DNA from: Azoarcus sp. DN11 | GTDB taxonomy: Bacteria > Pseudomonadota > Gammaproteobacteria > Burkholderiales > Rhodocyclaceae | Reading direction: 5' to 3' | DNA: 64,000 nucleotides | NCBI RefSeq assembly: GCF_003628555.1 | Contig: NZ_CP021731.1 | Location: 2,294,001 to 2,358,000 of the forward strand | Part shown: piece by piece, positions 34,230 through 57,201 of the stretch | Layout: each line of letters opens with the position of its first letter | How positions within the stretch are numbered: position 1 is the stretch's first letter | Notes under the pieces: model-generated | What the model was told of the DNA's origin: nothing | Seen by the model: the letters and a program-made list of their open reading frames with translations, nothing else | Databases searched by the model: none | Position numbers and translations under genes: made by a program

Positions 34230-34260
34230 ATTGGTCGGTGCGGTGCGCTGATTCCTTACA
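34230..34260 (-). promoter_or_regulatory. ECF-sigma promoter motif before the glycosyltransferase pair
   Basis: Minus-strand TGTAAGG (34254-34260), a 16-bp spacer and CGACCAAT (34230-34237). One of eight matches to the motif described at 45174. The spacer is one base longer than in most, as in the copy before the sigma operon. Confidence 0.6.
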
Positions 34261-34409
34261 GCGCGGTTCCCCCTGCGCAATATACCGTCGGTCATGTCAA
34301 CGAGACGCCCGGTGTCACTCGTGCCCGCCTCCGGCCCTAAAGTGGTGACGTGTCCACCAACGCCGCGACCCCGGGCGCCGGTTCGGACCTTTGCTAACCG
34401 GGAGTAACC

Positions 34410-34667
34410 ATGACAGAGATCACGATGTACAGCGCACAAGGGTGCGCGTATTGCCAGGCGGCCGAACGGCTTCTCCTCGGCAAGGGTGTCGCACGGTTGA
34501 ACAAGATCAGGGTGGATGCCGAGGAGGGACGCCTCGAAGAGATGATCGAGCGAAGCGGGCGCCGCACGGTTCCGCAGATCTTCATCGGGTCGCTGCATGT
34601 CGGCGGCTTCGACGATCTGGCACGTCTCGACCGGGCCGGGCAGCTCGAGCCGCTGCTGCGAGGCTGA
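34410..34667 (+). CDS. grxC: glutaredoxin (GrxC-like)
   Basis: An 85-residue glutaredoxin with the dithiol site CAYC at residues 12-15, the cis-Pro motif TVPQIFIG and a C-terminal VGGFDDLARLD for glutathione binding. It could reduce protein disulfides or serve as an electron donor to metal/metalloid reductases. It stands alone on the plus strand between two minus-strand operons. Confidence 0.92.
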   Translation: MTEITMYSAQGCAYCQAAERLLLGKGVARLNKIRVDAEEGRLEEMIERSGRRTVPQIFIGSLHVGGFDDLARLDRAGQLEPLLRG

Positions 34668-34705
34668 AGGCGAAAAGCGCGACGATTCGCCGCGCGCCGC
34701 CCGGT

Positions 34706-34834
34706 CTACTTGGGGCGATTCCGGTCGAAGAAGACATACTTGATGGCCGCAATCGCCACGAGCACCAGCACAAGGATCGCCAGCCAGCCCACCAGGCCCA
34801 TGCCGATCATCATGTTTCCCATGCCGTTCATCAT
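34706..34834 (-). CDS. small Met-rich single-pass membrane protein
   Basis: A 42-residue protein. A Met/Gly-rich start (MMNGMGNMMIGMG) is followed by one strong hydrophobic helix (GWLAILVLVLVAIAAIKYVFF) and a short basic tail. The ATG overlaps the stop of the upstream oxidoreductase gene (ATGA), and GGAGGACCAAGG provides a ribosome site, both supporting a real gene. Met-rich segments can bind soft metals such as Cu(I) or Ag(I). Function unknown. Confidence 0.65.
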   Translation of the reverse strand: MMNGMGNMMIGMGLVGWLAILVLVLVAIAAIKYVFFDRNRPK

Positions 34835-37056
34835 GTCCTTGGTCCTCCGTCGAGGTGACCTGCGCGGATAGGAGCTGCCGGAAGCGGCCGCTCCGGCGGC
34901 GCAACCGGCGGACGGCCACGCCGCCAGTCGTGGAAGCGCCCGACCCATGCTAGCAGGGCCTGCGGCGCGTGGGCACGTTTCCACTCGCCGGCCGCGTACT
35001 TGTTGGCCTCGGCGAGCGTCGGGTAGATGTGGATCGTGCCGAGGATCTTGTTGAGCCCCAGGCCGTGGCGCATCGCGACGACGTATTCGGCGATCAGGTC
35101 GCCGGCGTGCTCGCCGACGATCGTGACCCCGAGGATCCTGTCCTTGCCCGGCACGGTGAGCACCTTGACGAAACCGTGTGCTTCGCCGTCGGCGATCGCG
35201 CGATCGAGCTCTTCGAGAGCGAAGCGCGTGACCTCGAAGGGAATCTCGCGTTCGCGCGCCTCCTGCTCGTTGAGGCCGACGCGGGCGACCTCGGGATCGA
35301 CGAAGGTCGACCACGGCACCACGGAGTAGTCGGCGCGGAATTTCCTGAACGGCGCAAACAGGGCGTTCACCGACGCGTACCAGGCCTGGTGGGCGGCCGT
35401 ATGCGTGAATTGATACGGGCCGGCAACGTCGCCCGCGGCGTAAATGTTCGGGTAGCTGGTCTGCAGGAACTCGTTGACCGTGACGGTATCCCCGGTCGGG
35501 ATGCCGAGCGCCTCGAGCCCATAGCCCTTCAGGTTCGCGGTGCGGCCGACCGCGACGAGCAGCACGTCGAAGGGGATGCGGACTTCCTCGCCGTCGTGTT
35601 CGGCGATGAGCAGCTTCGCGCCGTCGTCGACGACGAAACGCGCGATCTTGTGCCGGGTGCGCAGGTCTATCCCTTCCGCGCAGAAGCGCTGCATGACGAG
35701 TTCGGACACCTCGGCGTCCTCGCGCGGCATCACGCGCTCGCCGCGCAGGACCATCGTCACGTTCGCGCCGAAGCGGGCGAAGGTCTGCGTCAGTTCGGCA
35801 CCGATCGGCCCGCCGCCGAGCACGAGGAGCCGCCGCGGCAGTTCGCGCAGGCTCCAGATCGTGTCCGAGGTGTAGTAGCCGACGTCCTCGATGCCGGGGA
35901 TCGACGGCACCGCGGGGCGCGCGCCGGTCGCGATGATGATGCTGCGCGTGGTGAGCCGCTGGTGCCCGCCGTCATTGCGCGCGATCTCGATTTCCCACGG
36001 CGAGACGATCTTCGCCCGGCCTTCGATGACGTCGACGCCGAGGCCGCGGTAGCGCTCGACCGAATCGTGCGGCTCGACGGTCCTGATGATCGCCTGCACG
36101 CGTTCCATCACGTCCGCGAAGTCGAAATCCGCTCGCGCGTCGCGAATGCCGAACTCCTTCGCGCGCCGGATGTGCGACAGCAGTTTCGCCGAGCGGATCA
36201 GCGCCTTGGATGGCACGCAGCCGGTATTGAGGCAGTCGCCTCCCATCTTGTGCTTTTCGACCAGGGTCACCTTGGCCTTCACCGCTGCGGCGATGTAACT
36301 GCTGACGAGCCCCGCCGCCCCCGCGCCGATGACGACGAGGTTGCGGTCGAAATGGCCGGGGCGCTGCCAACCGGCGTAGACCTTGCGCGCCCTGACCGCG
36401 TCGACGAGCTTTCTGGCGACCAGCGGGAATATGCCCAGCAGCGCAAAGGAAGCGAGCAGTCCCGGCGACACGATGCCGGCGAGCGAGTCGATCTGCGCGA
36501 GGCGGGTGCCGGCATTCACGTAGACGAAGGTGGCGGGGAGCATGCCGAGCTGACTGACCCAGTAGAAGGTCCGGGTGCGGATCGGCGTCAGACCCATCGC
36601 GAGGTTGATGACGAAGAAAGGGAACGCGGGCACGAGGCGCAGCGTGAAGAGATAGAAGCCGCCGTCCTTCTCCACTCCGGCGTTGATCGGCGCAAGCCGG
36701 CCGCCGAAACGCGACTGCACGAACTCGCGCAGCATGAAGCGCGACGCGAGGAAGGCGAGGGTGGCGCCGATCGTCGAGGCGAACGAGACGATCAGCGTGC
36801 CCTGCGCGAGGCCGAAGATGGCGCCGGCGACGAGCGTCATGACCGCGGCGCCGGGCAGTGACAGCCCGGTGACGGCCACGTAAAGGGCAAAGAAACCGAA
36901 GGCTGCGGCCACTGGCCGCGCGTCGCGCCAGGCGCCGATGGCGGTCTGCTGGCGCCTGAAGAAATCGAGGTCGAGGTAGCGGTCGAGATCGAAGAGGAAG
37001 AAGAGCGCGATCCCGAGGACCAGGATGGCGGCAAGGACGAGTCGGCCGGCTTTCAT
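34831..37056 (-). CDS. TVP38/VTT membrane domain fused to MerA-like FAD disulfide oxidoreductase
   Basis: A 741-residue fusion. Residues 1-220 form a VTT/TVP38 (DedA-like) membrane domain (SLPGAAVMTLVAGAIFG, FTLRLVPAFPFFVIN). Residues about 238-700 form a flavin disulfide oxidoreductase with GAGAAGL (244-250), redox pair Cys-275/Cys-280 (CLNTGC) and GGGPIGAEL. The C-terminal site reads HIYPT, with Tyr where lipoamide dehydrogenase has its catalytic His, as in mercuric reductase. There is no N-terminal HMA domain and no C-terminal Cys pair, so it is not a classical MerA. It may reduce a metal(loid) or a thiol at the membrane. Confidence 0.88.
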   Translation of the reverse strand: MKAGRLVLAAILVLGIALFFLFDLDRYLDLDFFRRQQTAIGAWRDARPVAAAFGFFALYVAVTGLSLPGAAVMTLVAGAIFGLAQGTLIVSFASTIGATLAFLASRFMLREFVQSRFGGRLAPINAGVEKDGGFYLFTLRLVPAFPFFVINLAMGLTPIRTRTFYWVSQLGMLPATFVYVNAGTRLAQIDSLAGIVSPGLLASFALLGIFPLVARKLVDAVRARKVYAGWQRPGHFDRNLVVIGAGAAGLVSSYIAAAVKAKVTLVEKHKMGGDCLNTGCVPSKALIRSAKLLSHIRRAKEFGIRDARADFDFADVMERVQAIIRTVEPHDSVERYRGLGVDVIEGRAKIVSPWEIEIARNDGGHQRLTTRSIIIATGARPAVPSIPGIEDVGYYTSDTIWSLRELPRRLLVLGGGPIGAELTQTFARFGANVTMVLRGERVMPREDAEVSELVMQRFCAEGIDLRTRHKIARFVVDDGAKLLIAEHDGEEVRIPFDVLLVAVGRTANLKGYGLEALGIPTGDTVTVNEFLQTSYPNIYAAGDVAGPYQFTHTAAHQAWYASVNALFAPFRKFRADYSVVPWSTFVDPEVARVGLNEQEAREREIPFEVTRFALEELDRAIADGEAHGFVKVLTVPGKDRILGVTIVGEHAGDLIAEYVVAMRHGLGLNKILGTIHIYPTLAEANKYAAGEWKRAHAPQALLAWVGRFHDWRRGRPPVAPPERPLPAAPIRAGHLDGGPRT

Positions 37057-37071
37057 TTGTGGATCTCCTTT

Positions 37072-38203: not shown

Positions 38204-38677
38204 TCACCGACTGGCGTCACGGCCGATGGCTTCAAAAATCGGGTCGAGCTCGCGCGCCAGTTCGTCGAGCTTGGGGCTGTCGTAGGGGCCGAACACGCTG
38301 CCCGGCGTCCGCCACGACAGCGTCGCCGTGCCGTCGGTGTTCTCGGTCACGTAGTAGCGCAGCGGTGCCTCGACGCCGGCCGGCACGCTCGCCTGGAGCA
38401 TGCGCACCGCGTAGTCGTTGCGGAACACCATCACCACCGCGTTGCCCGGGATCTTCACGCCACGCGCGGCGGCGCCGCGGCTCGCGCTCGCGACGGCGAC
38501 GACTGCGAGGCCATGCCGGTCGACCGCGCTCTCCAGTCGATCGAGCAGTTCCGGAAACGGATATGCGCTTGCAATCGTGCGCACGCCGTCGGGCGGGGCC
38601 GCGTGGGCGACGGCGGACAGGACTGTCAGGGTTGCGAGCATCGGCGCAATCGCGTGGCGCAGGCTGATCTTCTGCAT
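38204..38677 (-). CDS. exported DUF302 protein
   Basis: A 157-residue protein with a Sec signal peptide (about residues 1-26, ending VAHAAPP) and a DUF302 domain: HGLAVVAVASASRGAAARG, NAVVMVFRNDYAVRMLQASVPAG and a TATLSWRTPGSVF segment. DUF302 proteins are small alpha/beta proteins of unknown role, often near metal or sulfur genes. First gene of a four-gene minus-strand operon, with a long leader holding a hairpin and an ECF promoter motif. Confidence 0.82.
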   Translation of the reverse strand: MQKISLRHAIAPMLATLTVLSAVAHAAPPDGVRTIASAYPFPELLDRLESAVDRHGLAVVAVASASRGAAARGVKIPGNAVVMVFRNDYAVRMLQASVPAGVEAPLRYYVTENTDGTATLSWRTPGSVFGPYDSPKLDELARELDPIFEAIGRDASR

Positions 38678-38774: not shown

Positions 38775-38804
38775 CTTAGTCGCGCGGCGCCCGCCGTCCT
38801 TACA
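38775..38804 (-). promoter_or_regulatory. ECF-sigma promoter motif before DUF302-yeeE-MerA-like operon
   Basis: Minus-strand TGTAAGG (38798-38804), exactly 15 bp, then CGACTAAG (38775-38782). It matches the eight-site motif and points at the DUF302 gene, leaving a leader of about 90 bases. Confidence 0.65.
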
Positions 38805-39577: not shown

Positions 39578-39967
39578 TCAGCGAGCGAAGTCGTTATCGA
39601 CCTGCAGCCCTTCGAGCATCTTGTTGAAACCGCTGAAAAGGTCCACCACGGCCATCAGCTCCACGAGTTCTCCGTCCGTGCTCCCCATCGCGCGCAGCGC
39701 CCCGGTGTGCGCCTGAACGCAGTAGTCGCAGCCGTTGGTCGCCGATACGGCGACGGCGATCATCTCCTTGGTCTTGCGGTCGAGCAGCCCGGGTCCCATG
39801 ATCGTCTTGACCCGCTGCCAGCTGGCCTGCAGATAGGCCGGGTTGTGCGCCATGACCTTGAAGAGATTGGGCACGAAGGGCATGCCGAAGGTCTTGCGGA
39901 TGTCCTCATAAACTTCCCGCACGACGCCGACGGCGTCGCTTTCACTGACGTAAGCCACGGTTGCCAT
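39578..39967 (-). CDS. carboxymuconolactone decarboxylase / AhpD-like protein
   Basis: A 129-residue AhpD-fold protein with the redox motif CDYCVQAH. The preceding block MGPGLLDRKTKEMIAVAVSATNG is typical of peroxidase-like members. Likely a thiol peroxidase or alkylhydroperoxidase; decarboxylase activity is not implied. It lies between the peroxidase-related enzyme and the haloacid dehalogenase genes. Confidence 0.85.
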   Translation of the reverse strand: MATVAYVSESDAVGVVREVYEDIRKTFGMPFVPNLFKVMAHNPAYLQASWQRVKTIMGPGLLDRKTKEMIAVAVSATNGCDYCVQAHTGALRAMGSTDGELVELMAVVDLFSGFNKMLEGLQVDNDFAR

Positions 39968-40060
39968 TTCTTTTTCCTTTGTGTCGATCTTCGGGGTGGA
40001 TCTCTGCCGGGCCGTCCACGATGGCGGCCCCGCCGGCGGATGTCTTGCGGGCCCCTTCGG

Positions 40061-40636
40061 TCAGCGCGGATCGACCCAGCGGCGTTCGGCGAATTTCTCG
40101 TCGAGTTCGGTGTGGAACAGGTGGTTCGAGTAGTTGCTGAGCGTCTTGACGGCAATTGCGAGGACGATCTCCAGGATCTGGCGCTCCGCGTAGCCGGCGG
40201 CCAGGAAGGCATCCACGTCCTTGCGCCGGGGCAGGCCGCGGCTTGCGACCATCGTGCGCGTGAATTCGGCGAGCGCCCGCAGTCGGGCGTCCGGAATCGG
40301 GCGGCCGTCGCGGATGGCGTTCGTCACTTCGACCGGCACGCCGGAGAATTTGTCGGCGATGAGGCTGTGCGCGCCCACGCAGTAGTCGCACCCGTTCTCG
40401 CGCGAGATGGCGAGGAAGACGACCTCCTGCTCCGCCGGCGTGAAGCCCGAATCCTTGCGGAAGGCGGCATAGCCGTCGAGATAGGTGTTGAGCACGCCCG
40501 GCGAATGCACCATGTTGGCGTACATGTTGGGGATGAAGCCCACCTGCTTGAGCGCCTTGTCCAGCACTGCTTTCGCATTGCCTTCGGCGGTTTCGGGTGA
40601 TTGGGGGGGTAGGGTCAGTCTGTATTCGGCCAGCAT
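40061..40636 (-). CDS. peroxidase-related AhpD-family enzyme
   Basis: A 191-residue protein with the CDYCVGAHS redox site after EQEVVFLAISRENG, and a C-terminal IVLAIAVKTLSNYSNH helix. It belongs to the uncharacterised peroxidase-related group, larger than AhpD-like single-domain proteins. First gene of the operon, with a perfect TGGACC/GGTCCA dyad 25 bp upstream, so it is the probable primary target of the neighbouring TetR regulator. Confidence 0.85.
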   Translation of the reverse strand: MLAEYRLTLPPQSPETAEGNAKAVLDKALKQVGFIPNMYANMVHSPGVLNTYLDGYAAFRKDSGFTPAEQEVVFLAISRENGCDYCVGAHSLIADKFSGVPVEVTNAIRDGRPIPDARLRALAEFTRTMVASRGLPRRKDVDAFLAAGYAERQILEIVLAIAVKTLSNYSNHLFHTELDEKFAERRWVDPR

Positions 40637-42130: not shown

Positions 42131-42322
42131 TCAGGGCTCGCTGCCGGAATCGCCCTCGCGCAGGCGTCGTGTGGCCTTGCGCAGGAACTGGAGGTGCTTG
42201 CCGTAATTGGCGCAACCGCTGCATGCCATCGTATGCAGCCTCAGCGCGAGGCGCTCGCGCAGCGTCAATGCACGCTCCTGGCTGTCGGAAATGAGGCGGG
42301 TTACCTCCTTGCAATTCATCAT
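42131..42322 (-). CDS. small zinc-type anti-sigma factor
   Basis: A 63-residue soluble protein with His-30, Cys-34 and Cys-37, the HxxxCxxC motif of zinc-binding anti-sigma (ZAS/zf-HC2) proteins, and an additional Cys-4. It lacks a transmembrane segment. Its ATG overlaps the sigma factor stop (ATGA), the classical sigma/anti-sigma arrangement. The thiols may sense oxidants or soft metals and release the sigma factor. Confidence 0.8.
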   Translation of the reverse strand: MMNCKEVTRLISDSQERALTLRERLALRLHTMACSGCANYGKHLQFLRKATRRLREGDSGSEP

Positions 42323-42933
42323 GTGACGGCCTCCCCGTGGAACCAGCGGTTTTCGAGACATTCCCGCAATCCGAGACGGGCGCGGTGCAGGATCACCCAG
42401 CAGTTGCGATCGGTGATGCCGAGCCGGCGGCAGATTTCGCCGGTCTCCAGGTCGAGGAACTCCCGCATCATGTAGACGCGGGCGATGCGGTCCGGCAGAT
42501 GGTCGAGGCAGGCCTCGAATACCGCCCAGAATTGCCGCTGCGAGAGCAAGGCCTCCGGATCCGCCCACGTGACTGGACGGTCCTCGGGGTTCCAGAAGCC
42601 GCGTTTGTCGAAAAGCGCGTCAAAGTCCTGGAGCTCGCCATCGTCGTCGGTGGCCTGGATGAGGTCCGAGCCGCAGATCTCGCGCGACGAGGCACGGATG
42701 TGATCGACGATCTTGTTGCGCAGGATCGCGAACATCCAGGTCTTCAGCGCCGCCCGTCCGGCGAAGCCCTTCGCGCCGGTCATCGCGGCGATGAGTGCCT
42801 CCTGCACCATGTCTTCCGCCGCGCCGGCATCACGCAGCTGCAGTTGCGCGAAGCGCAGCATGTCGCGGCGGATCGTGATGATGGACGGATCGTCCCACAG
42901 GATTTCCGTCGTCCGGCCCTTGCCCTGGTTCAT
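42319..42933 (-). CDS. ECF-type RNA polymerase sigma factor
   Basis: A 204-residue sigma-70 family protein with region 2 (MLRFAQLQLRDAGAAEDMVQEAL, ALKTWMFAILRNKIVDHIR) and region 4 (FEACLDHLPDRIARVYMMREF, ETGEICRRLGITDRNCWVILHRAR). The ATG at 42933 follows GGGAGGA. Overlaps join it to the NrtS-like gene upstream and the anti-sigma gene downstream. A match to the recurring GTAAGG/CGAC motif lies before the operon, so it is the best candidate for reading all eight sites. Confidence 0.93.
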   Translation of the reverse strand: MNQGKGRTTEILWDDPSIITIRRDMLRFAQLQLRDAGAAEDMVQEALIAAMTGAKGFAGRAALKTWMFAILRNKIVDHIRASSREICGSDLIQATDDDGELQDFDALFDKRGFWNPEDRPVTWADPEALLSQRQFWAVFEACLDHLPDRIARVYMMREFLDLETGEICRRLGITDRNCWVILHRARLGLRECLENRWFHGEAVT

Positions 42934-43169
42934 CGCGTATTCCTCCCGCATTCCCGGGTTGCATTGAGTGCAGCACTGTAGCTGGACACGCAATACGGCA
43001 CCAGAAAATTCAGCAGGCCGCGGCCCCAATCGATCGCCCCTCCGTCAAGCAGGACGCCTCCCTGGTTGACCCCATTCAGCATCACGCCGACCACGAGCGA
43101 CACCTTGAGTGCCGCGCTGGCGATCTCGGGCCGGCAGGCCGCACATAGCACCGCGACCGGACGACTCAT
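42930..43169 (-). CDS. NrtS-like small membrane protein
   Basis: A 79-residue protein with two hydrophobic segments. The block KVSLVVGVMLNGVNQGG and the NFLVPYCVSSYSA segment resemble NrtS, a small nitrate/nitrite transporter subunit known from cyanobacteria and proteobacteria. It carries an N-terminal CAAC pair that could bind metal. Start and stop overlap the neighbouring HD-GYP and sigma genes by four bases each. Transport of nitrate is not implied by this context; family assignment is by eye. Confidence 0.6.
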   Translation of the reverse strand: MSRPVAVLCAACRPEIASAALKVSLVVGVMLNGVNQGGVLLDGGAIDWGRGLLNFLVPYCVSSYSAALNATRECGRNTR

Positions 43170-44107
43170 GCCGGACAGCCCTGCGGCAGGCTGTCGAGAA
43201 GATCCTGCAGCGGGGCGCGGCCGGCGGCGGACTGCACGACGCGCGCGACAAGCGCGACGTCGGCGGCCGGCTCCAGCGCGCGCGCATCACCCTTGCGCCC
43301 GGTCGCTGCGACGCCCAGCGTCCCTTCGGGCTTCGCCGTGACGCGATACCCGTTGCCGCAGGAGCGGCAATGCACGACGTCGCCGGGCGCGGTGGCGCGC
43401 GTGAGCACGAGTGTCGGCCCGCACACCGGACAGCTTTGCAGGGGAATGCCGTCGTCGCTGTGGCCGACGATGTGCGCGAGCACGCCGGTGTCGGCGAGTG
43501 CGAGAAAGTGGGCGCCCAGATCGGGGTCGAACTGCGTGCCCAGATGGGCGCCGACGATGTCGAGCGCGGTATCGATGGGCATGCCGGCACGGTGGGGGCG
43601 GGTGCTCGTCATCGCGTCGAAGGCATCGCAGATCGCCACCAGGCGGGCGTCGAGCGGGATCTCGCCGGCCGGCAGGCCGCGCGGGTAGCCGCGGCCGTCG
43701 GGGCGTTCGTGGTGCGACGCGACCGTCGGCAGCACTAGGCCGGCGAGAGGATGCGTGGCGAGCAGCCGTACGCCGATGTTGGGATGCGTGCGGATCGTGG
43801 CGAGCTCGTCGGCGTCGAGACTGGCCGGCTTTCTCAGGATCGCGTCGGGAATGCCGATCTTGCCCAGGTCGTGCAGGAAACCGCCGATCGTCACGCGCGC
43901 CACGTCTGCAGGGCCGAGGCCGGCCTTCTCCGCGAGCAGCTCGGCATAGCGCGAGACGCGCCACAGGTGCCCGCCGGTATAGGGGTCGCGCGCCTCGACG
44001 ATCCCCGCGATCACCAGCAGGCTGGCAAGCATGTCATGGGTGCGGCTGCGTGCGGGCCGGTGCGCGCGAGGGGTGATCCACCGACCGAGTGCGTTATGAA
44101 AGTTCAT
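43166..44107 (-). CDS. HD-GYP domain phosphohydrolase with C-terminal Cys-rich segment
   Basis: A 313-residue protein. The HD-GYP domain (about residues 25-190) has GGFLHDLGKIGIP, the HHERPDGRGYP motif and DAFDAMTS. HD-GYP enzymes degrade cyclic di-GMP. A C-terminal zinc-ribbon-like pair (CPVCG, about 22 residues later CRSCG) is an unusual addition. It is first gene of the sigma operon, with a promoter motif of the same ECF type only 17 bp upstream and GGGGAGGAGG as ribosome site. Confidence 0.88.
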   Translation of the reverse strand: MNFHNALGRWITPRAHRPARSRTHDMLASLLVIAGIVEARDPYTGGHLWRVSRYAELLAEKAGLGPADVARVTIGGFLHDLGKIGIPDAILRKPASLDADELATIRTHPNIGVRLLATHPLAGLVLPTVASHHERPDGRGYPRGLPAGEIPLDARLVAICDAFDAMTSTRPHRAGMPIDTALDIVGAHLGTQFDPDLGAHFLALADTGVLAHIVGHSDDGIPLQSCPVCGPTLVLTRATAPGDVVHCRSCGNGYRVTAKPEGTLGVAATGRKGDARALEPAADVALVARVVQSAAGRAPLQDLLDSLPQGCPA

Positions 44108-44123: not shown

Positions 44124-44154
44124 ATTCGTCGCGCGGGGACGGGCCGGCCTTACG
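44124..44154 (-). promoter_or_regulatory. ECF promoter motif before the sigma-factor operon
   Basis: Minus-strand GTAAGG (44148-44153), a 16-bp spacer and CGACGAAT (44124-44131). It differs from the others in lacking the leading TT and the A after GTAAGG, so it may be a weaker, autoregulatory copy. Confidence 0.5.
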
Positions 44155-44170: not shown

Positions 44171-44938
44171 TCACGTCGCCTCGCTCAGCGCCGCTACCAG
44201 CCGCTCGACCGATACCGGCAGGTAAGCGGTGATATCGAGCGCACGATCCTCGAAGACATCCTCATCCGGGCGCGCGCGCAGACGGGCCGCGATGACCGCG
44301 TCGCGATGCCGCAAGAGGCCTTCGATCCACGGCCGGTAGAGCCGCAGCATCGCACCCAGCCAGCGGTTCGCCGGCCACGACGGCCAGGCATGGTCGATCT
44401 CGAACCGCCCGAGCATGCGGATGACGTCCTCGGCCGGATACCAGGTCTCGCCCGTGACCCAACGGTTGGTCGCGAACAGGCCGATCGGCTCGCCCCAGGC
44501 ATCCATCGAGATTGCGACGAGATGGCTGATCGCCTCGTCGCCGGCGGGCCAGGGCTCGGTCGCTGCGTGAAACGCGAACGGCGCGACTCCCGCCGGCATG
44601 CCGCCCGCACGCAGGAATGTATGGAAGTGGCCATGCTCCGCGTCGCCGCGATGGGCGTGGTAGTAGTACTGCGCGTGCGTGTCGGCGTCGAACACGTCGT
44701 CCTGCGGGTAGTGCTCGATCTCAACGAATTCGCCCTGACCGCGCAGCACCTCGCCGACGACGTTGAGGCCGACCTTCGCCAGCACGCGCCGACAGCCGAG
44801 CGCCTCCCGGCCGGCATCGAGCAGTTCGCGCCGGGTCGGCAGGTCGAACTCGTGCAGGGCCGGCAGGTAGTACGACGGCAGCGGTGGCGCAGTCAGGCCG
44901 GCGAGCAGCGGCCCGGAAGCGGTGTCGACAGCGATCAT
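44171..44938 (-). CDS. DUF6969-type protein next to an NPCAA peptide gene
   Basis: A 255-residue soluble protein of unknown function, which I believe belongs to the DUF6969 family. It has a His-rich core: EIEHYPQDDVFD, AQYYYHAHRGDAEHGHFHTFL, SHLVAISMDAWG and TNRWVTGETWYP. These conserved His and acidic residues suggest a metal-dependent enzyme. The ATG overlaps the stop of a 55-residue Cys-motif protein (ATGA), so the two are made together. A maturation or metal-loading role for that peptide is speculation. Confidence 0.7.
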   Translation of the reverse strand: MIAVDTASGPLLAGLTAPPLPSYYLPALHEFDLPTRRELLDAGREALGCRRVLAKVGLNVVGEVLRGQGEFVEIEHYPQDDVFDADTHAQYYYHAHRGDAEHGHFHTFLRAGGMPAGVAPFAFHAATEPWPAGDEAISHLVAISMDAWGEPIGLFATNRWVTGETWYPAEDVIRMLGRFEIDHAWPSWPANRWLGAMLRLYRPWIEGLLRHRDAVIAARLRARPDEDVFEDRALDITAYLPVSVERLVAALSEAT

Positions 44939-45173: not shown

Positions 45174-45204
45174 ATTGGTCGTTTCCGATAAGGAATCCTT
45201 ACAA
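45174..45204 (-). promoter_or_regulatory. ECF promoter motif before the NPCAA/DUF6969 pair
   Basis: Minus-strand TTGTAAGG (45197-45204), 15 bp, CGACCAAT (45174-45181). With 48414-48444 it is the best match to the consensus TTGTAAGGAWTCC-N-CGACCAA that recurs eight times between 34 and 57 kb. Confidence 0.7.
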
Positions 45205-45257: not shown

Positions 45258-45287
45258 TGTAAGGACAGGGCCTCCACCACGACCAAT
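45258..45287 (+). promoter_or_regulatory. ECF promoter motif toward merF
   Basis: Plus-strand TGTAAGG (45258-45264), 15 bp, CGACCAAT (45280-45287). It is divergent from the copy at 45174-45204, only 53 bp away, and lies upstream of the MerR-type merF promoter. Confidence 0.65.
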
Positions 45288-45385: not shown

Positions 45386-45652
45386 ATGAAGACGCGCACC
45401 TTGCTGCGAACAGGCATTGCCGGATCGGCGGTCGCTGCCCTGTGCTGCGCCACGCCGGTGCTCGTGATCGTGCTGGGGGCCGTGGGACTTTCCGCATGGA
45501 TCGGCTGGCTCGATTACGTGTTGATGCCGGCGTTGATGATCTTCGTCGGCATCGCCCTCTACGCCCTGCGGCGGCAGTGGATCGAAGGCGCCTGTTGCGA
45601 GCCCGAAACCGAACTCGGGCCGGACTGGAAAAAGCAGGCGTCAAATGAGTGA
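45386..45652 (+). CDS. merF: mercuric ion transporter MerF
   Basis: An 88-residue MerF: two transmembrane helices, the vicinal pair Cys-20/Cys-21 in ALCCATPVLV in the first helix and Cys-70/Cys-71 (GACCEP) on the cytoplasmic side, both needed for Hg(II) transfer. It lies about 3.6 kb from the main mer operon with its own MerR operator, plus an ECF motif farther upstream. GATAGAGGAG precedes the ATG. Confidence 0.93.
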   Translation: MKTRTLLRTGIAGSAVAALCCATPVLVIVLGAVGLSAWIGWLDYVLMPALMIFVGIALYALRRQWIEGACCEPETELGPDWKKQASNE

Positions 45653-45721: not shown

Positions 45722-46351
45722 ATGAATCCCAGTTCCCGCATCCCGACCGACTCGCGGCACCGCTTTCCCTGGTACGCGCGCCTGGTGTTCGCCAACCAGC
45801 GCCGCCGCTACGGGCGCGAACTCGAGCCGGCGCGTCTGTGGGCGCGCACGCCGAGGGTCTTCGCCGCGCTGTCGCTGCTCTACGGGGCGCTCGATCGGCG
45901 CCGCTCGCCCATTGAGCCTGCGCTGCGCTCGCTCATCACGGTGCGGGTGTCGCAAATCAACTGGTGTGCGTTCTGCGTGGATATCAATTCGGCCACCTGC
46001 CTCAAACGCGGCGTGAGCGAAGTGCAGCTCGCCGAGCTCGCCGGGTTCGAGCAGTCGCCGCATTTCGACGCGCGCCAGAAGGCGGCGCTTGCCTATGCCG
46101 AGGCCATGACGCGCACCGATGCCGGCGTTGACGACGCGCTCATGGCGCGCCTGAGGTCCCATTTCGGTGATGACGGAATCATCGAACTGACGGCGCTCGT
46201 TGCCTTCCAGAACATGTCGAGCAAGTTCAACGCGGCGCTCGCCGTGGCGCCGCAAGGCTTTTGTCGAACCGGCGGCGCCCGCGCCGGCGCGGCCGACCCG
46301 AGACTGCACGCGGATTCGGCTGCCGCAGGCGGCCATCAGCACGGCGATTGA
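45722..46351 (+). CDS. AhpD/carboxymuconolactone decarboxylase-like protein
   Basis: A 209-residue protein with the core SLITVRVSQINWCAFCVDINSAT (CxxC) and ARQKAALAYAEAMTRT. It has an Arg-rich N-terminus and a C-terminal tail that reads into a dispersed repeat, which supplies the stop codon region. The family contains thiol peroxidases. Downstream of merF on the same strand, 69 bp away, so it may share its regulation. No good ribosome site was seen. Confidence 0.78.
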   Translation: MNPSSRIPTDSRHRFPWYARLVFANQRRRYGRELEPARLWARTPRVFAALSLLYGALDRRRSPIEPALRSLITVRVSQINWCAFCVDINSATCLKRGVSEVQLAELAGFEQSPHFDARQKAALAYAEAMTRTDAGVDDALMARLRSHFGDDGIIELTALVAFQNMSSKFNAALAVAPQGFCRTGGARAGAADPRLHADSAAAGGHQHGD

Positions 46352-48059: not shown

Positions 48060-48341
48060 TTATTTCTTGGCCGCGCAAGGGTTGGCGGCGTTCGCCGCGC
48101 AGGGATTCTTGGCCGCGCACGGATTCGCGGCTTTTGCGGCGCACGGGTTGGCCACTTTGTCCTTCATCTTGGGGGCGCAGGGATTCTTGGCAGCGCAGGG
48201 ATTCTTGGCCGCGCAAGGGTTCATCATCTTCGCCGCGCACGGGTTGGCCGCGCTATCGGCGGCAGCCGCCGGCAGTGCCAGCGCGGCAGCGGCAAGGGCT
48301 GCCAGCCCGAACGACAGGGTCTTGCGGGATAGGGTTTTCAT
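48060..48341 (-). CDS. exported NPCAAK-repeat Cys-rich protein
   Basis: A 93-residue protein with a Sec signal peptide (residues 1 to about 28, ending LPAAAAD) and a mature part that is almost wholly repeats of Asn-Pro-Cys-Ala-Ala-Lys. There are eight Cys at 35, 43, 49, 55, 67, 75, 81 and 89, each preceded by Asn-Pro. There are no aromatic residues in the mature part. It is likely a periplasmic soft-metal or metalloid sponge, or a precursor of a modified peptide. It has an ECF promoter motif upstream and a shorter relative at 44935-45102. Function is inferred. Confidence 0.85.
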   Translation of the reverse strand: MKTLSRKTLSFGLAALAAAALALPAAAADSAANPCAAKMMNPCAAKNPCAAKNPCAPKMKDKVANPCAAKAANPCAAKNPCAANAANPCAAKK

Positions 48342-48413: not shown

Positions 48414-48444
48414 TTTGGTCGGGCCACAAACGGATTCCTTACAA
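48414..48444 (-). promoter_or_regulatory. ECF promoter motif before the NPCAAK gene
   Basis: Minus-strand TTGTAAGG (48437-48444), 15 bp, CGACCAAA (48414-48421). The match to 45174-45204 covers TTGTAAGGA-TCC and CGACCAA. The leader to the ATG at 48341 is about 65 bases. Confidence 0.7.
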
Positions 48445-48528: not shown

Positions 48529-48951
48529 TCATGAGCGCTCGGCCTGGGCGCCGTGCAGGGCCGCGATCAGCGGGCAGGAAACCTTGCCCCGATGCGCCTT
48601 GCATTCACTCACCAGCGTCGACAGCGCCGCTTCCATGTGCAGCAGATCCGCCAGCCGTGCGCGCACGTCGGCGAGCCGCAGCGCGGCCAGTTCCGCTGCT
48701 TCGCTGCAATGGGTGCCGTCTTCGAGCTTCAGCAGCTGGCCGATCTCGTCCAGGCTGAACCCGAGCCGCTGCGCCGCTTTCACGAACCTGACCCGCCCCA
48801 CGTCGGCACGCGGGTAGCGGCGGATTCCGCCGTAGGGCCGATCCGGTTTGGGCAACAGGCCCTTGAGCTGGTAGAAGCGGATCGTCTCCACATTGACGCC
48901 GGCTGCCTTGGCGAAGGCACCGATGGTGAGGTTTTCCGGCTCATCGTTCAT
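48529..48951 (-). CDS. merR: mercury-responsive regulator MerR
   Basis: A 140-residue MerR. The N-terminal winged helix ([26 protein letters not shown]) binds the dyad. Cys-82, Cys-117 and Cys-126 are at exactly the canonical Hg(II)-binding positions of Tn501 MerR. Divergent from merT over the operator at 48956-48986. It presumably also acts at the identical arms before merF. Confidence 0.97.
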
Positions 48952-48955
48952 GTAC

Positions 48956-48986
48956 TTGACTCCGTAGTTGACTACGGAAGTAACTT
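48956..48986 (+). promoter_or_regulatory. MerR operator/promoter of merTPA
   Basis: -35 TTGACT (48956-48961), a 19-bp spacer, -10 TAACTT (48981-48986), with dyad CCGTAG-TTGA-CTACGG at 48962-48977. Classical mer promoter architecture. It begins 5 bp from the merR start, so MerR also represses itself. Confidence 0.9.
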
Positions 48987-49021
48987 TAGTGCACCAAGCG
49001 CAGACCCGGAAGGAGAATCCC

Positions 49022-49372
49022 GTGCACTATCTGAAAACCGGCCGCAGCGCCCTGGCCGCCGGCGGCTTCGCGGCCATCCTCGCCTCGACCTGCTGCCTCG
49101 GTCCGCTGGTGCTGGTCGCGCTGGGCTTCTCGGGGGCGTGGATCGGCAACCTCACGGTGCTGGAGCCGTACCGGCCGATATTCATCGGCGCGGCGTTGAT
49201 TGCGCTGTTTTTCGCCTGGCGCAGCATCTTTCGCCCCGCCCAGGCGTGCAAGCCGGGCGACATCTGCGCCGTGCCCCAGGTCAGAACCACTTACAGGCTC
49301 ATTTTCTGGATTGTGACCGTGTTGGTGGCGGTTGCGCTCGCCTTTCCCTATGTCCTTCCGCTGTTCTATTGA
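49022..49372 (+). CDS. merT: mercuric transport protein MerT
   Basis: A 116-residue inner-membrane protein with three hydrophobic helices, Cys-24/Cys-25 in the first helix and Cys-76/Cys-82 on the cytoplasmic loop, all at canonical MerT positions. The GTG at 49022 follows AAGGAGAATCC and gives the family length; an upstream in-frame start at 48968 lies in the promoter. It moves Hg(II) from MerP to MerA. Confidence 0.95.
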
Positions 49373-49384
49373 AAGGAGATCGTC

Positions 49385-51338
<1,954 letters not shown>

Positions 51339-52631: not shown

Positions 52632-53621
52632 ATGCAGCTTCGATCCATCGCAAAGTGGGGGCGGAACCTCACGCTCGTGCTGGCCGCGCTGATCGCTGCG
52701 GGCTGGCTCGCATTCGTGCCCCGCAGCAAGGAGCCGCCCTACACGTTCGTCGCCGCGTGGGGCGAAAAGGGCAGTGCGCCAGGCCAGTTCGATGATCCGA
52801 CCGGGATCGCAGTGGCCGGCGACGAGGTGTTCGTCTCCGACTCGCGCAACGGCCGCATCCAGGTCTTCGACTTCGACGGCCGCTTCAAGCGGCTATTCGG
52901 CACGTCCGGGAGCGGCCCCGGCCAGCTCGGCCGTCCCATGAACCTGAAGGTGCACGACGGGCGCCTTTACGTCGCCGAGTACTTCAACGATCGCATTCAG
53001 GTATTCGGCCTCGACGGCCGCTCGCAGCGAATCATCGGCAAGACGGGGAACGGACCGGGTGAATTCAATGCGCCTGGCGGCGCGGCGGTGGCGCCGAACG
53101 GCAACCTGCTGGTGGCCGACTTCTACAACCAGCGCGTCCAGCGGCTCGGCGCGGACGGCACTCCGGTGCGCCAGTGGGGCGAAACGGGCAAGATCGGTAT
53201 CTGGGGGGGCGAGTTCAACTATCCGACCGATGTCGCCGTTGGCCCCGACGGCACGCTCTTCGTTGCCGACGGCTACAACGACCGGATACAGGCCTTCGCC
53301 CCTGACGGCGCGTTGCTGCGCAAGTGGGGCGGCCCGTTCGCGATGAACATCTTCGGCCCGTTTAACGGCTGGTTCGCCACGGTGACCAACGTGACGGTGG
53401 ATGGGCAGGGCCATGTGTTCGCCGCCGACTTCTACAACCACCGCATCCAGAAATTCGCCGCGGACGGCACGTTCCTGACCGCCCTGGGCGCCAAGGGGAG
53501 CGGCCCGGGGCAGTTCGATCACGCCATCGCCGCTGCCGTGGCCGATGACGGCACCGTCTTCGCCGTCGATTTCGGCAATAACCGCATCCAGAAGTGGCGC
53601 CAGACGGGAGCGGGACGATGA
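52632..53621 (+). CDS. NHL-repeat beta-propeller protein, membrane-anchored
   Basis: A 329-residue protein. An N-terminal membrane anchor or uncleaved signal (LTLVLAALIAAGWLAFV) is followed by five to six NHL repeats with the pattern G..G.F..P.G.AV....VFV.D..N.RIQ.F; examples end NGRIQVFDFDG, NDRIQVFGLDG, NQRVQRLGADG, NDRIQAFAPDG and NHRIQKFAADG. Probably a periplasmic propeller. It starts 9 bp after the barrel gene and is last in the mer operon. Its role in metal handling is unknown. Confidence 0.85.
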   Translation: MQLRSIAKWGRNLTLVLAALIAAGWLAFVPRSKEPPYTFVAAWGEKGSAPGQFDDPTGIAVAGDEVFVSDSRNGRIQVFDFDGRFKRLFGTSGSGPGQLGRPMNLKVHDGRLYVAEYFNDRIQVFGLDGRSQRIIGKTGNGPGEFNAPGGAAVAPNGNLLVADFYNQRVQRLGADGTPVRQWGETGKIGIWGGEFNYPTDVAVGPDGTLFVADGYNDRIQAFAPDGALLRKWGGPFAMNIFGPFNGWFATVTNVTVDGQGHVFAADFYNHRIQKFAADGTFLTALGAKGSGPGQFDHAIAAAVADDGTVFAVDFGNNRIQKWRQTGAGR

Positions 53622-53730
53622 TGAGCGCCACCGACCGGACACGCAGTGCCCGGCAATTTGCCTAGGAAGCAGCATTTCCGGTTCCGACGGGGGTGGGTTC
53701 GGGGTGCGTGCTTCGGGGGATGGCGCCTGG

Positions 53731-54630
53731 TCAGTCCTCGCTCAGTTGCGCCCGGAAGAAGGCAACGTTCACGATCAGTCCCGGCAGCAACCACTGGAAC
53801 AGACGTACCATATTCAGAATCTCGTTGAACTGTGCGCCGGCGGCAGCGCGCAGTTGCTCGGGCACGAGCCTGCCAGGGTTCGGAAGGGCGAGCACCGTAT
53901 CGACGGCGGTGCGATGAACCTCTTCCGTGATTCGCTCGTACGCCTCACCGCCGACTTGTTCCCGCAGCCCCGCCCATGCGGCGGAAAAGTAGGTAGGCCA
54001 CCGAGCGAGGGCGCGGTAGTCCGTGTTGACGAAAGGCAGGCCGAGGCGCGACGTGATGTCACTGTAAAGTTCGCGCGTCGGCGCGTCGACGTGATGCTTT
54101 TCCATCAGGACCAGGGGGACAGTCGCGGCTGCGCCGTGCCTGTTCGCGCCCGGCTGAACCGACGTTTCCGCGCTGAGGGAATGACCTTCGAGAAGTAGCC
54201 GCGCCTGGGTCGCGATCAGCAGGTAAGGCATGTTGCCGTGCGAGAAGACCTCGATCAGTTCCCTGATCTGCTCGATCTCACGCGCCGCGTAGCCGAGTTC
54301 GGCGAGCTGCGGTTGTAGCGGCGTGACCGAAAGGCTGCTCGCAACATCCTCCGCCGCCTCGCGCAGGCGCCGACATGCGGCGACGAACTCGACCGATTCG
54401 TACAGCGGCCGCAGTCCCTCCCATAAGGTCCCGTAGAACGCCGGGTAGTGCGCCATCGCCATCGTAACCACGCCCATCCAGGGCACTTGAAGAACGCGTT
54501 TGGTCTCGTCGTAAACCGCCTTGCGTGTGCCGGTCGCCAAATACTCGGGTACCGGATGCAGGAGCGGGATGGGGTCCGGCTTCAGACGCATGAGAGCGTT
54601 CGAACCGGCCGTTTGAAGTTTCCCGGTCAT
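53731..54630 (-). CDS. DehI-family 2-haloacid dehalogenase
   Basis: A 299-residue protein with an internal duplication: AMAHYPAFYGTLWEGLRP in the first half and ALARWPTYFSAAWAGLREQVG in the second, the pseudo-dimer pattern of DehI. NTDYRALA (Asp-204) fits the water-activating Asp of the second half. DehI hydrolyses both D- and L-2-haloacids without a covalent intermediate. It is divergent in fold from the HAD enzyme encoded at 38812. An ECF motif lies 89 bp upstream. Confidence 0.75.
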   Translation of the reverse strand: MTGKLQTAGSNALMRLKPDPIPLLHPVPEYLATGTRKAVYDETKRVLQVPWMGVVTMAMAHYPAFYGTLWEGLRPLYESVEFVAACRRLREAAEDVASSLSVTPLQPQLAELGYAAREIEQIRELIEVFSHGNMPYLLIATQARLLLEGHSLSAETSVQPGANRHGAAATVPLVLMEKHHVDAPTRELYSDITSRLGLPFVNTDYRALARWPTYFSAAWAGLREQVGGEAYERITEEVHRTAVDTVLALPNPGRLVPEQLRAAAGAQFNEILNMVRLFQWLLPGLIVNVAFFRAQLSED

Positions 54631-54718
54631 CTCTTTTCAGTCCTACAGGTTGAGTACAGCACTCGCTTCGATCAGATGTACTGCGTAGCGGGCGGTAACG
54701 GTCGTTGCGTCGGAGATG

Positions 54719-54748
54719 ATTTGTCGCGACGGCGCCCGTTTCCTTACG
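54719..54748 (-). promoter_or_regulatory. ECF promoter motif before the DehI-type gene
   Basis: Minus-strand GTAAGG (54742-54747), 15 bp, CGACAAAT (54719-54726). The base before GTAAGG is C rather than T. It points at the gene starting at 54630. Confidence 0.6.
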
Positions 54749-54766
54749 ACGGGCCTCGCTCTGGGT

Positions 54767-55588
54767 TCAGCGTTCCCGCCTCGCCCAGGCCATCGGCGAT
54801 GCCCCGAGCCGCGTCGAAAAGGCGCGCGAGAGCGCCGTGGCGCTCCCGTAGCCGACTTCCTCGGCAACGATCTTGACCGGCCTGCCCTTGCGCAGGAGGG
54901 TCTGCGCGAGACCGATGCGCCAGTCGGTCAGGTAGTCGAGCGGGGTCTGCCCCACGGTTTCCCTGAAGTTCACGGCAAAACGGGCGCGGGACATGCCGGC
55001 ACGCGCGGCCAGTTCCTCCAGCGACCACTTGCGCGCCGGCTCCGCGTGCATCGCCTCGATCGCGCGGGCGAGCCGGGGTTCGGCCAAGCCCGCGAAAAGA
55101 CCGGTTGGCATCAGGCGGTGCTCGATCGTATGACGCAATACGTGCACCAGCACGACCTCGCACAGACGGTCGACGATGGCCTGCCGACCGGAGCGCTGCT
55201 CGAACGCTTCATCGAGCAGGAGGGCGAGCGTGCTCGCGAGCGCAGGCAGGTCGGCAAGGCGGATCACCAGCAAAGGGGGCAGGGCGCGCGCCAGGGGGTT
55301 GCCCAGGCCGCCGCCGAATTCGACCGACGCGCAGACGACGTCCGCCCCCGTATCGCGATGGGTGCGCAGGCGGTGGCCGGCGGGCCGGGGGTAGAACAGG
55401 AGGCTGGGCTCGTCGATGTCGATCAGGCGGCGATCGGCGCCCTCCACCTGGAGCGGCCCGCGGCGCACGACGTGCAGGTGCCCGGCTTCGTCGGTCGCCT
55501 CGAAGGTCGTCACGCCGCACAACGTGCCGGAATAGAAGACGCGCGCACTCAGCGCGAAGCGGTCGAGCAGGGATGACAGACGGTCCAT
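54767..55588 (-). CDS. AraC-family regulator
   Basis: A 273-residue regulator: an N-terminal cupin-like sensor (LHVVRRGPLQVEG, LLFYPRPAGHRL) and a C-terminal double helix-turn-helix (WSLEELAARAGMSRARFAVNFRETVGQTPLDYLTDWRIGLA, then ALSRAFSTRLGASPMAW). It belongs to the cupin_6/AraC_binding type that often controls a divergent oxidoreductase or AhpD-like gene. Here the divergent neighbour is the AhpD-like gene at 55704. The ATG at 55588 is chosen as the family N-terminus (MDRLSSLLDRF). Confidence 0.92.
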   Translation of the reverse strand: MDRLSSLLDRFALSARVFYSGTLCGVTTFEATDEAGHLHVVRRGPLQVEGADRRLIDIDEPSLLFYPRPAGHRLRTHRDTGADVVCASVEFGGGLGNPLARALPPLLVIRLADLPALASTLALLLDEAFEQRSGRQAIVDRLCEVVLVHVLRHTIEHRLMPTGLFAGLAEPRLARAIEAMHAEPARKWSLEELAARAGMSRARFAVNFRETVGQTPLDYLTDWRIGLAQTLLRKGRPVKIVAEEVGYGSATALSRAFSTRLGASPMAWARRER

Positions 55589-55703
55589 GAGATGTGAGAC
55601 GCAAAGTGGTTCAAACGATAAGGAACGAGTCCTGAAGTATCGTTCGATCACTCATTCTATGCACCGTGCACTTCCGCACGCAAATGCATGAATGGAGATG
55701 ATG

Positions 55704-56240
55704 ATGCCCACGATCCTTCCTTTGAATATTTCTGACGCCGACGAATCGACCGCGGCCACCCTCAACGCAGTCAAGGCCAAGCTGGGCGGTGTGCCGAACC
55801 TCATCGCGACGCTCGCCAATTCTCCGGCGGCGCTGCAAGGCTATCTGCAGTTCTCCGAGACGCTCGGTGCCGGACAACTCAGCGCGCGCCAGCGTGAAAT
55901 CGTTGCGCTGGCGACCGCCCAGGAAAACGTCTGCGGGTACTGCCTGAGCGCGCACAGCCTTCTCGGCAAGGCCATCGGGCTGAGCGAGGACGAGATCCGC
56001 CTGGCGCGCGCCGGCACGGCGAGCACGCCGCGGGAGGCTGCGATCGCGTCGTTTGCCCGTCAGCTCGTGCAGACGCGGGGGCGCGTCGGTTCCGGTGCCG
56101 TGGCGCATGCGCGCGAGGGGGGGCTGTCGGACGTGGTGATCCTCGAAATCATCGCCAACGTCGCACTGAGCGTGCTGACCAATTACACGAACCACGTGGC
56201 GGGGACGGTGATCGATTTCCCGGTCGTGGAAGTCGCCTGA
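55704..56240 (+). CDS. AhpD/carboxymuconolactone decarboxylase-like protein
   Basis: A 178-residue AhpD-fold protein with the CGYCLSAHS redox site after ARQREIVALATAQENV and a C-terminal EIIANVALSVLTNYTNHVAGT. Four ATGs occur in a short run; the last (55704) has GGAG at the best distance. Divergent from the AraC gene and likely its target. Followed 39 bp later by the isochorismatase-like gene. Confidence 0.87.
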   Translation: MPTILPLNISDADESTAATLNAVKAKLGGVPNLIATLANSPAALQGYLQFSETLGAGQLSARQREIVALATAQENVCGYCLSAHSLLGKAIGLSEDEIRLARAGTASTPREAAIASFARQLVQTRGRVGSGAVAHAREGGLSDVVILEIIANVALSVLTNYTNHVAGTVIDFPVVEVA

Positions 56241-56279
56241 ACGCACACGTGAAAACCAGCCAATCTGAGGGAGTTCGAC

Positions 56280-57107
56280 ATGAAGAACGATGAGCATGAA
56301 TCCGTTGCGGGCCGCCGCGACGTGCTGAAGGGGGTGGTGGGGGCCGCTGCGGTGGGCCTCGCCGCGGCGCTGTCGCCGACGGCGCACGCGCAGGCGAAGG
56401 CCGGATCGCCTTACGCCGACCCGGAGAAAAGCGCGTTGCCGCCGAGCAACATGGAATTGACGAGGGGGCGCACGGCCCTGCTGGTGGTCGATCCGCAGAA
56501 CGACTTCCTCAGCGAGAAGGGCGTCGCGTGGGGCGTGGTGGGCGAATCGGTGCGCGAGCAGGGGACGGTCGCGAACATCGAGCGTCTGTTCAAGGCCGCC
56601 AAGGCCGCCGACATCCCCGTCGTGATCTCGCCCCACTACTACTATCCGAGCGACAAGGGCTGGAAGTTCGAGGGCGCGCTCGAGAAGGTGATGCACAAGA
56701 TCAAGATGTTCGACCGCAAGGGGGCGCTGAATCTCACCGGTTTCGAGGGTTCGGGCGCGGACTGGCTGGAGCGGTTCAAGCCCTACATCAACGACGGCAA
56801 GACCATCGTCGCGTCGCCCCACAAGGTGTATGGGCCGCAGAACAACGACGTCGTGCTGCAACTGCGCAAGCAGCGGATCGACCAGGTGATCCTGGCCGGC
56901 ATGTCGGCCAACCTGTGCATCGAGAGCCATCTGCGGGAACTGCTGGAGACAGGGTTCGAGGTCGCGGTGGTGAAGGATGCGACCGCGGGTGCGAAGCTCC
57001 CCGACGGCGACGGTTACCTCGCGGCGCTGACCAACTTCCGCATGATCGCGAACGCGGTGTGGTCGGCCGACGAGGCGACGCGCCGTATGGCGGTCATCGC
57101 GGGCTGA
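56280..57107 (+). CDS. Tat-exported isochorismatase-like cysteine hydrolase
   Basis: A 275-residue cysteine hydrolase. An N-terminal twin-arginine signal (GRRDVLKGVVGAAAVGLAAAL) ends near AHAQA. The catalytic triad is readable: Asp in LLVVDPQNDF, Lys in SPHKVYG, and Cys in AGMSANLCIESH. It hydrolyses an amide or ester; the substrate is unknown. Periplasmic location is unusual for the family. It shares the strand with the AhpD-like gene and ends at a strong hairpin. Confidence 0.88.
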   Translation: MKNDEHESVAGRRDVLKGVVGAAAVGLAAALSPTAHAQAKAGSPYADPEKSALPPSNMELTRGRTALLVVDPQNDFLSEKGVAWGVVGESVREQGTVANIERLFKAAKAADIPVVISPHYYYPSDKGWKFEGALEKVMHKIKMFDRKGALNLTGFEGSGADWLERFKPYINDGKTIVASPHKVYGPQNNDVVLQLRKQRIDQVILAGMSANLCIESHLRELLETGFEVAVVKDATAGAKLPDGDGYLAALTNFRMIANAVWSADEATRRMAVIAG

Positions 57108-57115
57108 CGTGGCTG

Positions 57116-57148
57116 ACGACCGCGGGGCACCTTGGGCGCCGCGGTCGT
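57116..57148 (+). terminator. GC-rich hairpin after the cysteine hydrolase gene
   Basis: ACGACCGCGG and CCGCGGTCGT form a perfect 10-bp stem with a 13-base loop, starting 9 bp after the stop codon. It has no long T-run. It separates this operon from the arsS promoter. Confidence 0.55.
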
Positions 57149-57170
57149 TCCGCGAAGAAGTTCGGAGCAG

Positions 57171-57201
57171 TTGTAAGGATCGGCGCGCTGCGCCGACTAT
57201 T
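57171..57201 (+). promoter_or_regulatory. ECF promoter motif before arsS-arsM-pst
   Basis: Plus-strand TTGTAAGG (57171-57178), 15 bp, CGACTATT (57194-57201), 38 bp before the arsS ATG. It matches the consensus of the other sites and gives a leader of about 30 bases. Confidence 0.65.

Follow-up and report, generated by a model that had tools for sequence, protein, structure and literature searches.

A candidate promoter class of TIGR02943-family ECF sigma factors upstream of arsenosugar, mercury and cysteine-rich protein genes in Azoarcus sp. DN11

The sigma factor locus and its eight motif sites

The window analysed here is a stretch of 64,000 nucleotides (positions 2294001-2358000) of the 4.96-Mb, single-contig genome of Azoarcus sp. 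DN11. It encodes, on the minus strand, an ECF sigma factor of the NCBIfam family TIGR02943 (42319-42933; 248.6 bits against a curated cut-off of 162.2), the stop of which is overlapped by a small anti-sigma gene (42131-42322, minus strand, predicted start) whose product matches zf-HC2 and an anti-sigma family model and carries the HxxxCxxC signature as HTMACSGC. Among eight first-look candidates in the genome, this sigma factor was the single match at E ≤ 1e-20. Eight copies of a two-box motif, identical in sequence, coordinates and strand to those of the preliminary description, are present in the window; GTAAGG and CGAC are separated by 15 bases in six of them and by 16 in two. Sites were scored with a position weight matrix trained on 81 sites from other genomes only, 28 from the named loci described below and 53 from stretches of genomes of the order, most of the latter having been fetched as matches to a fuller pattern.

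The genes behind the sites are diverse. On the minus strand, the N16 site at 34230-34260 (score 31.0; no mismatch in the genome scan) precedes a TIGR04283 arsenosugar glycosyltransferase gene (NCBIfam match; ATG at 34193), and the N15 site at 38775-38804 (26.6) heads a DUF302 gene (ATG at 38677) followed by YeeE/YedE-like and DedA/MerA-like genes, the DedA part being named by reading. Further minus-strand N15 sites at 48414-48444 (32.3) and 54719-54748 (22.7) stand upstream of the genes for an NPCAAK-repeat protein (48060-48341) and a DehI-domain protein (53731-54630; Pfam), respectively, and a plus-strand N15 site at 57171-57201 (25.2) precedes the radical SAM gene arsS (57240-58238; 453 bits against TIGR04167), which is followed by an ArsM-like gene (58186-59334) scoring under the ArsM model cut-offs. 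Two strong N15 sites lie back to back between 45174 and 45287 with 53 bases between them: the one at 45174-45204 (minus; 31.8) is directed toward a DUF6969 gene (ATG at 44938) and that at 45258-45287 (plus; 27.1) toward merF (45386-45652) and then a CMD gene. A comparable pair in a relative (L102; L and G numbers are our labels for loci and genomes) faces an NPCAAK cytochrome gene and a thioredoxin-like gene. The eighth site, a weak N16 candidate at 44124-44154 (minus; 9.2, two mismatches in the genome scan), lies before an HD-GYP-like gene (43166-44107) that precedes the sigma gene. From the end of the -10 box to the likely start codon there are 17-99 nt at seven sites, in agreement with the 17 to about 100 bp given earlier, and 236 nt in the case of the DUF6969 gene, which falls outside that range. 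The region is also crowded with five CMD/AhpD-like or DehI-domain proteins (39578-40636, 45722-46351, 53731-54630, 55692-56240). The matrix scan of the window gave no site scoring 9 or more ahead of the mer genes at 48529-51338, where merR is followed by merT, merP and merA (named by reading).

In the matrix scan of the window, the eight sites took the eight highest ranks. Seven of them score 22.7-32.3 and thereby exceed the best place in any of 20 Markov-simulated windows (21.1), only two of which contain any place scoring 17.7 or more; the score of 44124-44154 is surpassed in 14 of the 20. This last result bears on the earlier proposal that the sigma factor reads its own promoter: the only candidate for such a promoter is 44124-44154, which lies 1.2 kb upstream of the sigma gene, and because it scores at noise level, autoregulation through it is unproven and the proposal is left unsupported.

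Restriction of the motif in the genome and its link to the sigma family

The whole genome was scanned with the pattern TGTAAGGA-N14/15-CGACNAA, mismatches being counted and the reversed pattern serving as a control. With at most one mismatch there are ten matches (seven with the shorter and three with the longer spacer), seven of which fall within the window and three at 454.7-463.9 kb, with none elsewhere. If up to two mismatches are allowed, the totals of 15 and 22 approach those of the reversed control (12 and 11), and the weak matches are therefore mostly noise. The looser pattern TGTAAGG-N14..18-CGAC occurs 12 times in the genome against 9 for its control; the nine matches with a spacing of 15 or 16 all belong to the same two clusters, and the other three, with a spacing of 14 or 18, lie elsewhere. 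Genome-wide, only the strong matches are informative: those with no more than one mismatch are confined to two clusters, and the two-mismatch and looser totals are hardly above control. A spacing-14 match to the right of the window (L032) was dropped, nothing in that locus scoring 11 or more. Among the genes of the second cluster (sites at 454737, 454901 and 463824; L031 7322-17853, genome 453-464 kb) are a divergent pair, a DUF3179 gene and an NPCAAK-flanked cytochrome c gene; the encoded proteins include ones of 460 and 670 aa.

Relatives of the sigma factor are encoded in at least 303 confirmed loci, the best 80 of which constitute our named sample. In these 80 loci, both strands of the sequence outside the sigma gene were searched for GTAAGG-Nk-CGAC with k = 5 to 30, which gave 19 matches at k = 15 and 7 at k = 16, compared with 0-4 at other spacings; five scrambled boxes produced no spacing peak in the same sequences. 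CGTC, tried there as an alternative -10 box, gave one match each at N15 and N16 and no peak. The base before GTAAGG, which the search left free, is T in 27 of 28 relative sites, and A occupies the second position after CGAC in 20 and the third in 23 of the 28. By the matrix, 91 places in the named loci score 18 or more (one Markov replicate gave 2), including 24 that a filter assigns to sigma helix codons and at least five more inside sigma genes (L097, L102, L123, L127, L129). Such matrix counts around sigma loci are partly circular because most training sites from outside the named sample came from the fuller pattern; the spacing spectrum is free of that circularity.

The association extends to whole genomes. 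The sigma factor is present in 130 of 300 genomes of the order (E ≤ 1e-20). Outside the sigma gene, 45 motif matches were found in 29 of the 129 sigma-bearing genomes other than that of DN11, against 7 matches in 6 of the 170 genomes without the sigma factor (p = 7e-7), and the reversed control gave 10 and 9 matches, respectively. Matches in genomes lacking the sigma factor at this threshold (G069, G153, G164, G167, G168 and G172) may reflect a missed sigma factor, chance or another reader; in G069 a further site (26.4) precedes arsS.

The attribution of the sites to the product of 42319-42933, as originally put forward, is borne out in that its gene lies amid the sites and it is the genome's sole confident member of a family of which these appear to be the promoter class. 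The link holds because the protein belongs to TIGR02943, the motif shows a peak at k = 15/16 around its relatives and the published consensus for neisserial sigmaE is laid out alike. At least seven of the eight sites are almost certainly start signals read by the neighbouring sigma factor.

Predicted target genes in related genomes

A shared regulon is supported for part of the list because arsS (L065, L068, L076, L079, L168, L169), ArsM-like (L074, L089), TIGR04283 (L107), DUF6969 (L102), DedA/MerA-like (L099, L100, L106, L118, L183, L184, L189) and NPCAAK genes (cytochromes in L102 and L166) carry a site in other lineages. DUF3179 genes do so as well (L103, L107). Among the relatives' loci read, no site was noticed before MerF, DUF302 or DehI genes. 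Eighteen proteins were scanned with NCBIfam or Pfam (two of them twice, and two from DN11's own second cluster), the remaining names being given by reading; family matches were obtained for all scanned proteins except an EGKCG-type one in L069. In L069 (Azonexus hydrophilus), three sites precede genes that read as DsbD-like, EGKCG-type and thioredoxin-like.

Additional site-bearing genes in the relatives encode MsrP (eight loci), MsrB, MsrA and MsrAB, as well as DUF1223, DoxX, thioredoxin-like proteins and bufferins (DUF2282). The sigma gene itself has a site in L107 and L113, and a weaker one in L082 and L118. A site before the ovothiol synthase gene ovoA (L151 4341-4365) and another, with a weaker -10 box, 246 nt upstream of the ergothioneine synthase gene egtB (L169 17427-17452) suggest that thiol protectants belong to the regulon. 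In some cases (e.g., L117, L118, L174), the gene behind the site has no obvious connection. The description of the set as a metal/metalloid stress regulon fits the arsenic and mercury genes behind the sites, yet it is too narrow for the relatives, in which metals are no more prominent in the predicted regulon than thiols and oxidised methionine (Msr, thioredoxins, OvoA, perhaps EgtB) and peptides that buffer copper. Beside the ten DN11 sites with at most one mismatch, no msr genes were noticed by reading. In three loci of the Halomonas group (L113, L130 and L134, near 3600-4400), a site stands before a gene of the APH-type phosphotransferase family (Pfam for L113).

ArsS is found in 93 of the 300 order genomes and together with the sigma factor in 48, a co-occurrence that is not significant (p = 0.059) and was set aside as proof. 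The arsS start is within 2.6 kb of the sigma gene in 6 of the 47 genomes with both, DN11 excluded. Among 30 arsS loci checked, from 96 places listed, 12 have a site on the same strand scoring at least 14 in the 260 nt upstream. They comprise 10 of the 19 loci with the sigma factor and 2 of the 11 without it (p = 0.12). Control stretches contain a site in 3 of 60 cases, all three antisense to an arsS upstream region. Because two loci without the sigma factor carry a site, some arsS sites may be read by a different protein, or by a sigma factor missed by the cut-off.

Nine of the 300 genomes contain the exact DNA pattern for NPCAAKNPCA, and all nine have the sigma factor; by simple arithmetic, the chance that the eight genomes other than DN11 would all hold it is about 0.001. 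Grouping of the matches listed within 1 kb of each other, a list that leaves out two from G132, gave 13 NPCAAK places, 10 of which have a same-strand upstream site scoring 22 or more. One place in G132 and the single one in G048 have no upstream site of 14 or more, and the place in G092 has just one site (18.2), within the adjoining sigma gene. The NPCAAK-repeat protein of the window (48060-48341) has a signal-like start and 222 relatives, those named among the 120 matches listed being called 'hypothetical protein'. We considered it as a bufferin: it has no Pfam bufferin match, its only hit being Cornifin below the cut-off (25 against 34.8 bits), and the assignment was rejected because the MNIO enzyme (PF05114) is absent from this genome.

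Proposed mechanism, alternatives and a motif within the sigma gene

We propose, with a probability of roughly 0.88, that the sites serve as promoters for the TIGR02943-family sigma factor at 42319-42933, which would switch on a scattered regulon after release from its anti-sigma factor. The overlapping small anti-sigma factor, with its His-x3-Cys-x2-Cys zinc motif, would hold the sigma factor until its thiols are oxidised or captured by soft metals (Hg, As, Cu), a trigger deduced from this motif and from published relatives; sigmaE expression in meningococci showed no response to oxidants in one study (PMC2893595). The freed sigma factor, with RNA polymerase, would then read TGTAAGGA-N14/15-CGACNAA, starting transcription at the predicted positions and raising expression of an arsenic and mercury part (ArsS, the ArsM-like protein and the TIGR04283 transferase; MerF; the DUF302/YeeE/DedA-MerA operon) and of the remainder, namely the cysteine-rich NPCAAK-repeat proteins, DUF6969 and the DehI/CMD proteins, along with the second cluster with DUF3179 and the NPCAAK cytochrome. 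Arsenic-handling, mercury-handling and cysteine-rich protective genes thus appear, from their shared upstream element, to be turned on together.

Chance or base composition would account for the little that separates two-mismatch and loose-core counts from their controls, but neither this nor recent duplication of one segment is a credible source of the eight sites: exact and one-mismatch matches occur only in two clusters, few simulated windows reach even 17.7 anywhere, and the genome scans, the spacing peak at 15/16 and the matrix recovery all contradict an accidental origin, while spacers and flanks differ, by eye, among the sites. Scarcely more probable is a role of the sites as operators to which a repressor or activator binds. 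A conserved upstream motif whose promoter status is a candidate one, read from sequence, would suit an operator too, whereas an asymmetric two-box element with a spacing of 15 or 16 that faces gene starts, and that matches a consensus with a mapped gonococcal start site (PMC2893595), argues for a promoter.

The sites could instead be read by a different ECF sigma factor, such as a group-16 SigF-like protein recognising TGTAACC-N16-CGAA; this we regard as unlikely, though less so than the foregoing. ECF group 16 sigma factors are paired with an anti-sigma factor of another family. They likewise have a GTAA-type -35, a CG-type -10 and regulons for oxidants or heavy metals (PMC3420878, PMC3511200), the Bradyrhizobium EcfF promoter being GTAAC(g/a)-N14-15-(c/t)CG(t/a) (PMC3420878), and only one of the eight first-look sigma candidates of DN11 passed. 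However, the -35 ends differ, GTAACC in group 16 against GTAAGG in the window, and from genome to genome the motif goes with TIGR02943-type genes.

The TIGR02943 assignment connects the sites to systems already studied, as far as the accessible text of the cited papers goes. In Neisseria meningitidis, sigmaE (NMB2144) and its ZAS anti-sigma factor MseR (NMB2145) share with the window a two-box promoter layout and a small HxxxCxxC anti-sigma gene directly downstream of the sigma gene; the anti-sigma factor and the autoregulated operon have been published (PMC2893595). The neisserial consensus is GTMAGBWTT, a spacer of 12-13 and CGTCTAAH (PMC2893595), so that 15 or 16 bases after GTAAGG equal 12-13 after the nine-base neisserial -35. 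Its core GTMAGBW is present in seven of the eight window sites (in that at 44124 the seventh base is C), whereas the TT tail is found in one of eight (45174), and the -10 box reads CGAC, in the form CGACNAA, in all eight. The neisserial regulon is very small, covering its own operon and msrA/msrB, and autoregulated (PMC2893595), with a few more, probably indirect targets (PMC3240639). DN11, in contrast, has some ten sites, the genes behind which include those for arsenosugars, mercury and NPCAAK proteins, and shows no clear sign of autoregulation. The neisserial targets include an operon that combines DoxX with hypothetical genes (PMC2893595, PMC7907618) and that we take for a bufferin-type operon; a bufferin/MNIO operon is absent from the DN11 targets, PF05114 not occurring in this genome. 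More generally, bufferin clusters resemble the present system in placing cysteine-rich, secreted metal-buffering peptides under a sigma factor, and DUF2282 bufferin genes of relatives carry the window-type site, but MNIO, which together with a DUF2282 or EGKCG-type precursor marks a bufferin, is absent from DN11.

In the RpoE2-HrsE system of Haemophilus influenzae, RpoE2 responds to HOCl and has msrAB as well as a DoxX operon under its control, and the accessible part of the report mentions no arsenic or mercury genes among its targets (PMC7907618). The CGTC form of the -10 box was observed in Pasteurellaceae loci; in Haemophilus haemolyticus a relative of the window's sigma factor (39% identity) lies next to what reads as an MsrAB gene, upstream of which stands TGTAAGAAAT...CGTCTAA. 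The promoter class is therefore already known, since this locus joins a neisserial sigmaE-type site with the Haemophilus RpoE2. Neither the CGAC form nor the arsenosugar, mercury and NPCAAK targets were found in the literature, the search covering mostly papers outside subscription. It returned nothing on arsenosugar with an ECF sigma factor or on NPCAAK, nothing on TIGR02943 beyond a phage paper and, for TGTAAGG with sigma factor, no title on the family among the matches listed. The promoter matrix is applicable to any TIGR02943-bearing genome, where it predicts targets including many hypothetical proteins. Tying bacterial arsenosugar genes to a sigma factor for redox and soft-metal stress makes the reason why bacteria carry them testable, and a class of function is offered for the NPCAAK-repeat proteins.

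A separate lead concerns a putative internal promoter in the sigma genes of relatives. The sample comprised 108 non-identical sigma genes, taken from loci that a protein search had retrieved and excluding those fetched by the motif. The helix of the -35-reading region 4.2, CK[E/D]-x-x-[I/V/L]-[S/T]-x-[S/T]-N, has CK[E/D] encoded in 34 of them, and in 21 the helix codons contain, in frame, TGTAAGGA-N14-CG[A/T]CNAA, just before the anti-sigma gene (e.g., L008, L011, L016, L020, L077 and L080). Transcription is predicted to start 64-85 nt ahead of the sigma stop, with the anti-sigma start, chosen by rule, 69-103 nt further on. The Cys168 codon is TGT in 29 of the 34 CK[ED] genes, compared with 14 of 68 codons for the likewise invariant Cys142 and Cys192 in these genes (p = 3e-10) and 9 of 23 for CK[ED] elsewhere in the loci (p = 5e-4). 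Of the codons preceding [S/T]N, 22 of 23 have G as their last base, the background being 321 of 904 (p = 1e-9). Synonymous sites in the helix codons look selected, although other columns of the sigma gene have codon preferences as strong or stronger and a codon test on independent tree pairs had only 6 supported pairs. Since the internal promoter would stand before the anti-sigma gene, free sigma factor would make its own brake. The window's sigma factor (CRRLGITDRN) is without the internal motif. On a tentative reading, to which we give somewhat less than even odds, the helix codons of about one fifth of the relatives serve as the sigma factor's own promoter, so that free sigma induces its brake, and the window's sigma factor, without this device, runs arsenosugar genes and NPCAAK proteins, which would form a new, MNIO-independent class of soft-metal buffers under sigma control. 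The helix codons would then offer a striking example of a single DNA stretch that both encodes a protein and is that protein's target.

Two further sites involve sigma genes in other ways: in an Acidobacteria MAG, a very strong site (33.7; L138 8086-8114) precedes a different sigma-like gene, and in Thalassolituus a site (30.5; L129 10241-10270) lies inside the sigma gene, outside the helix codons.
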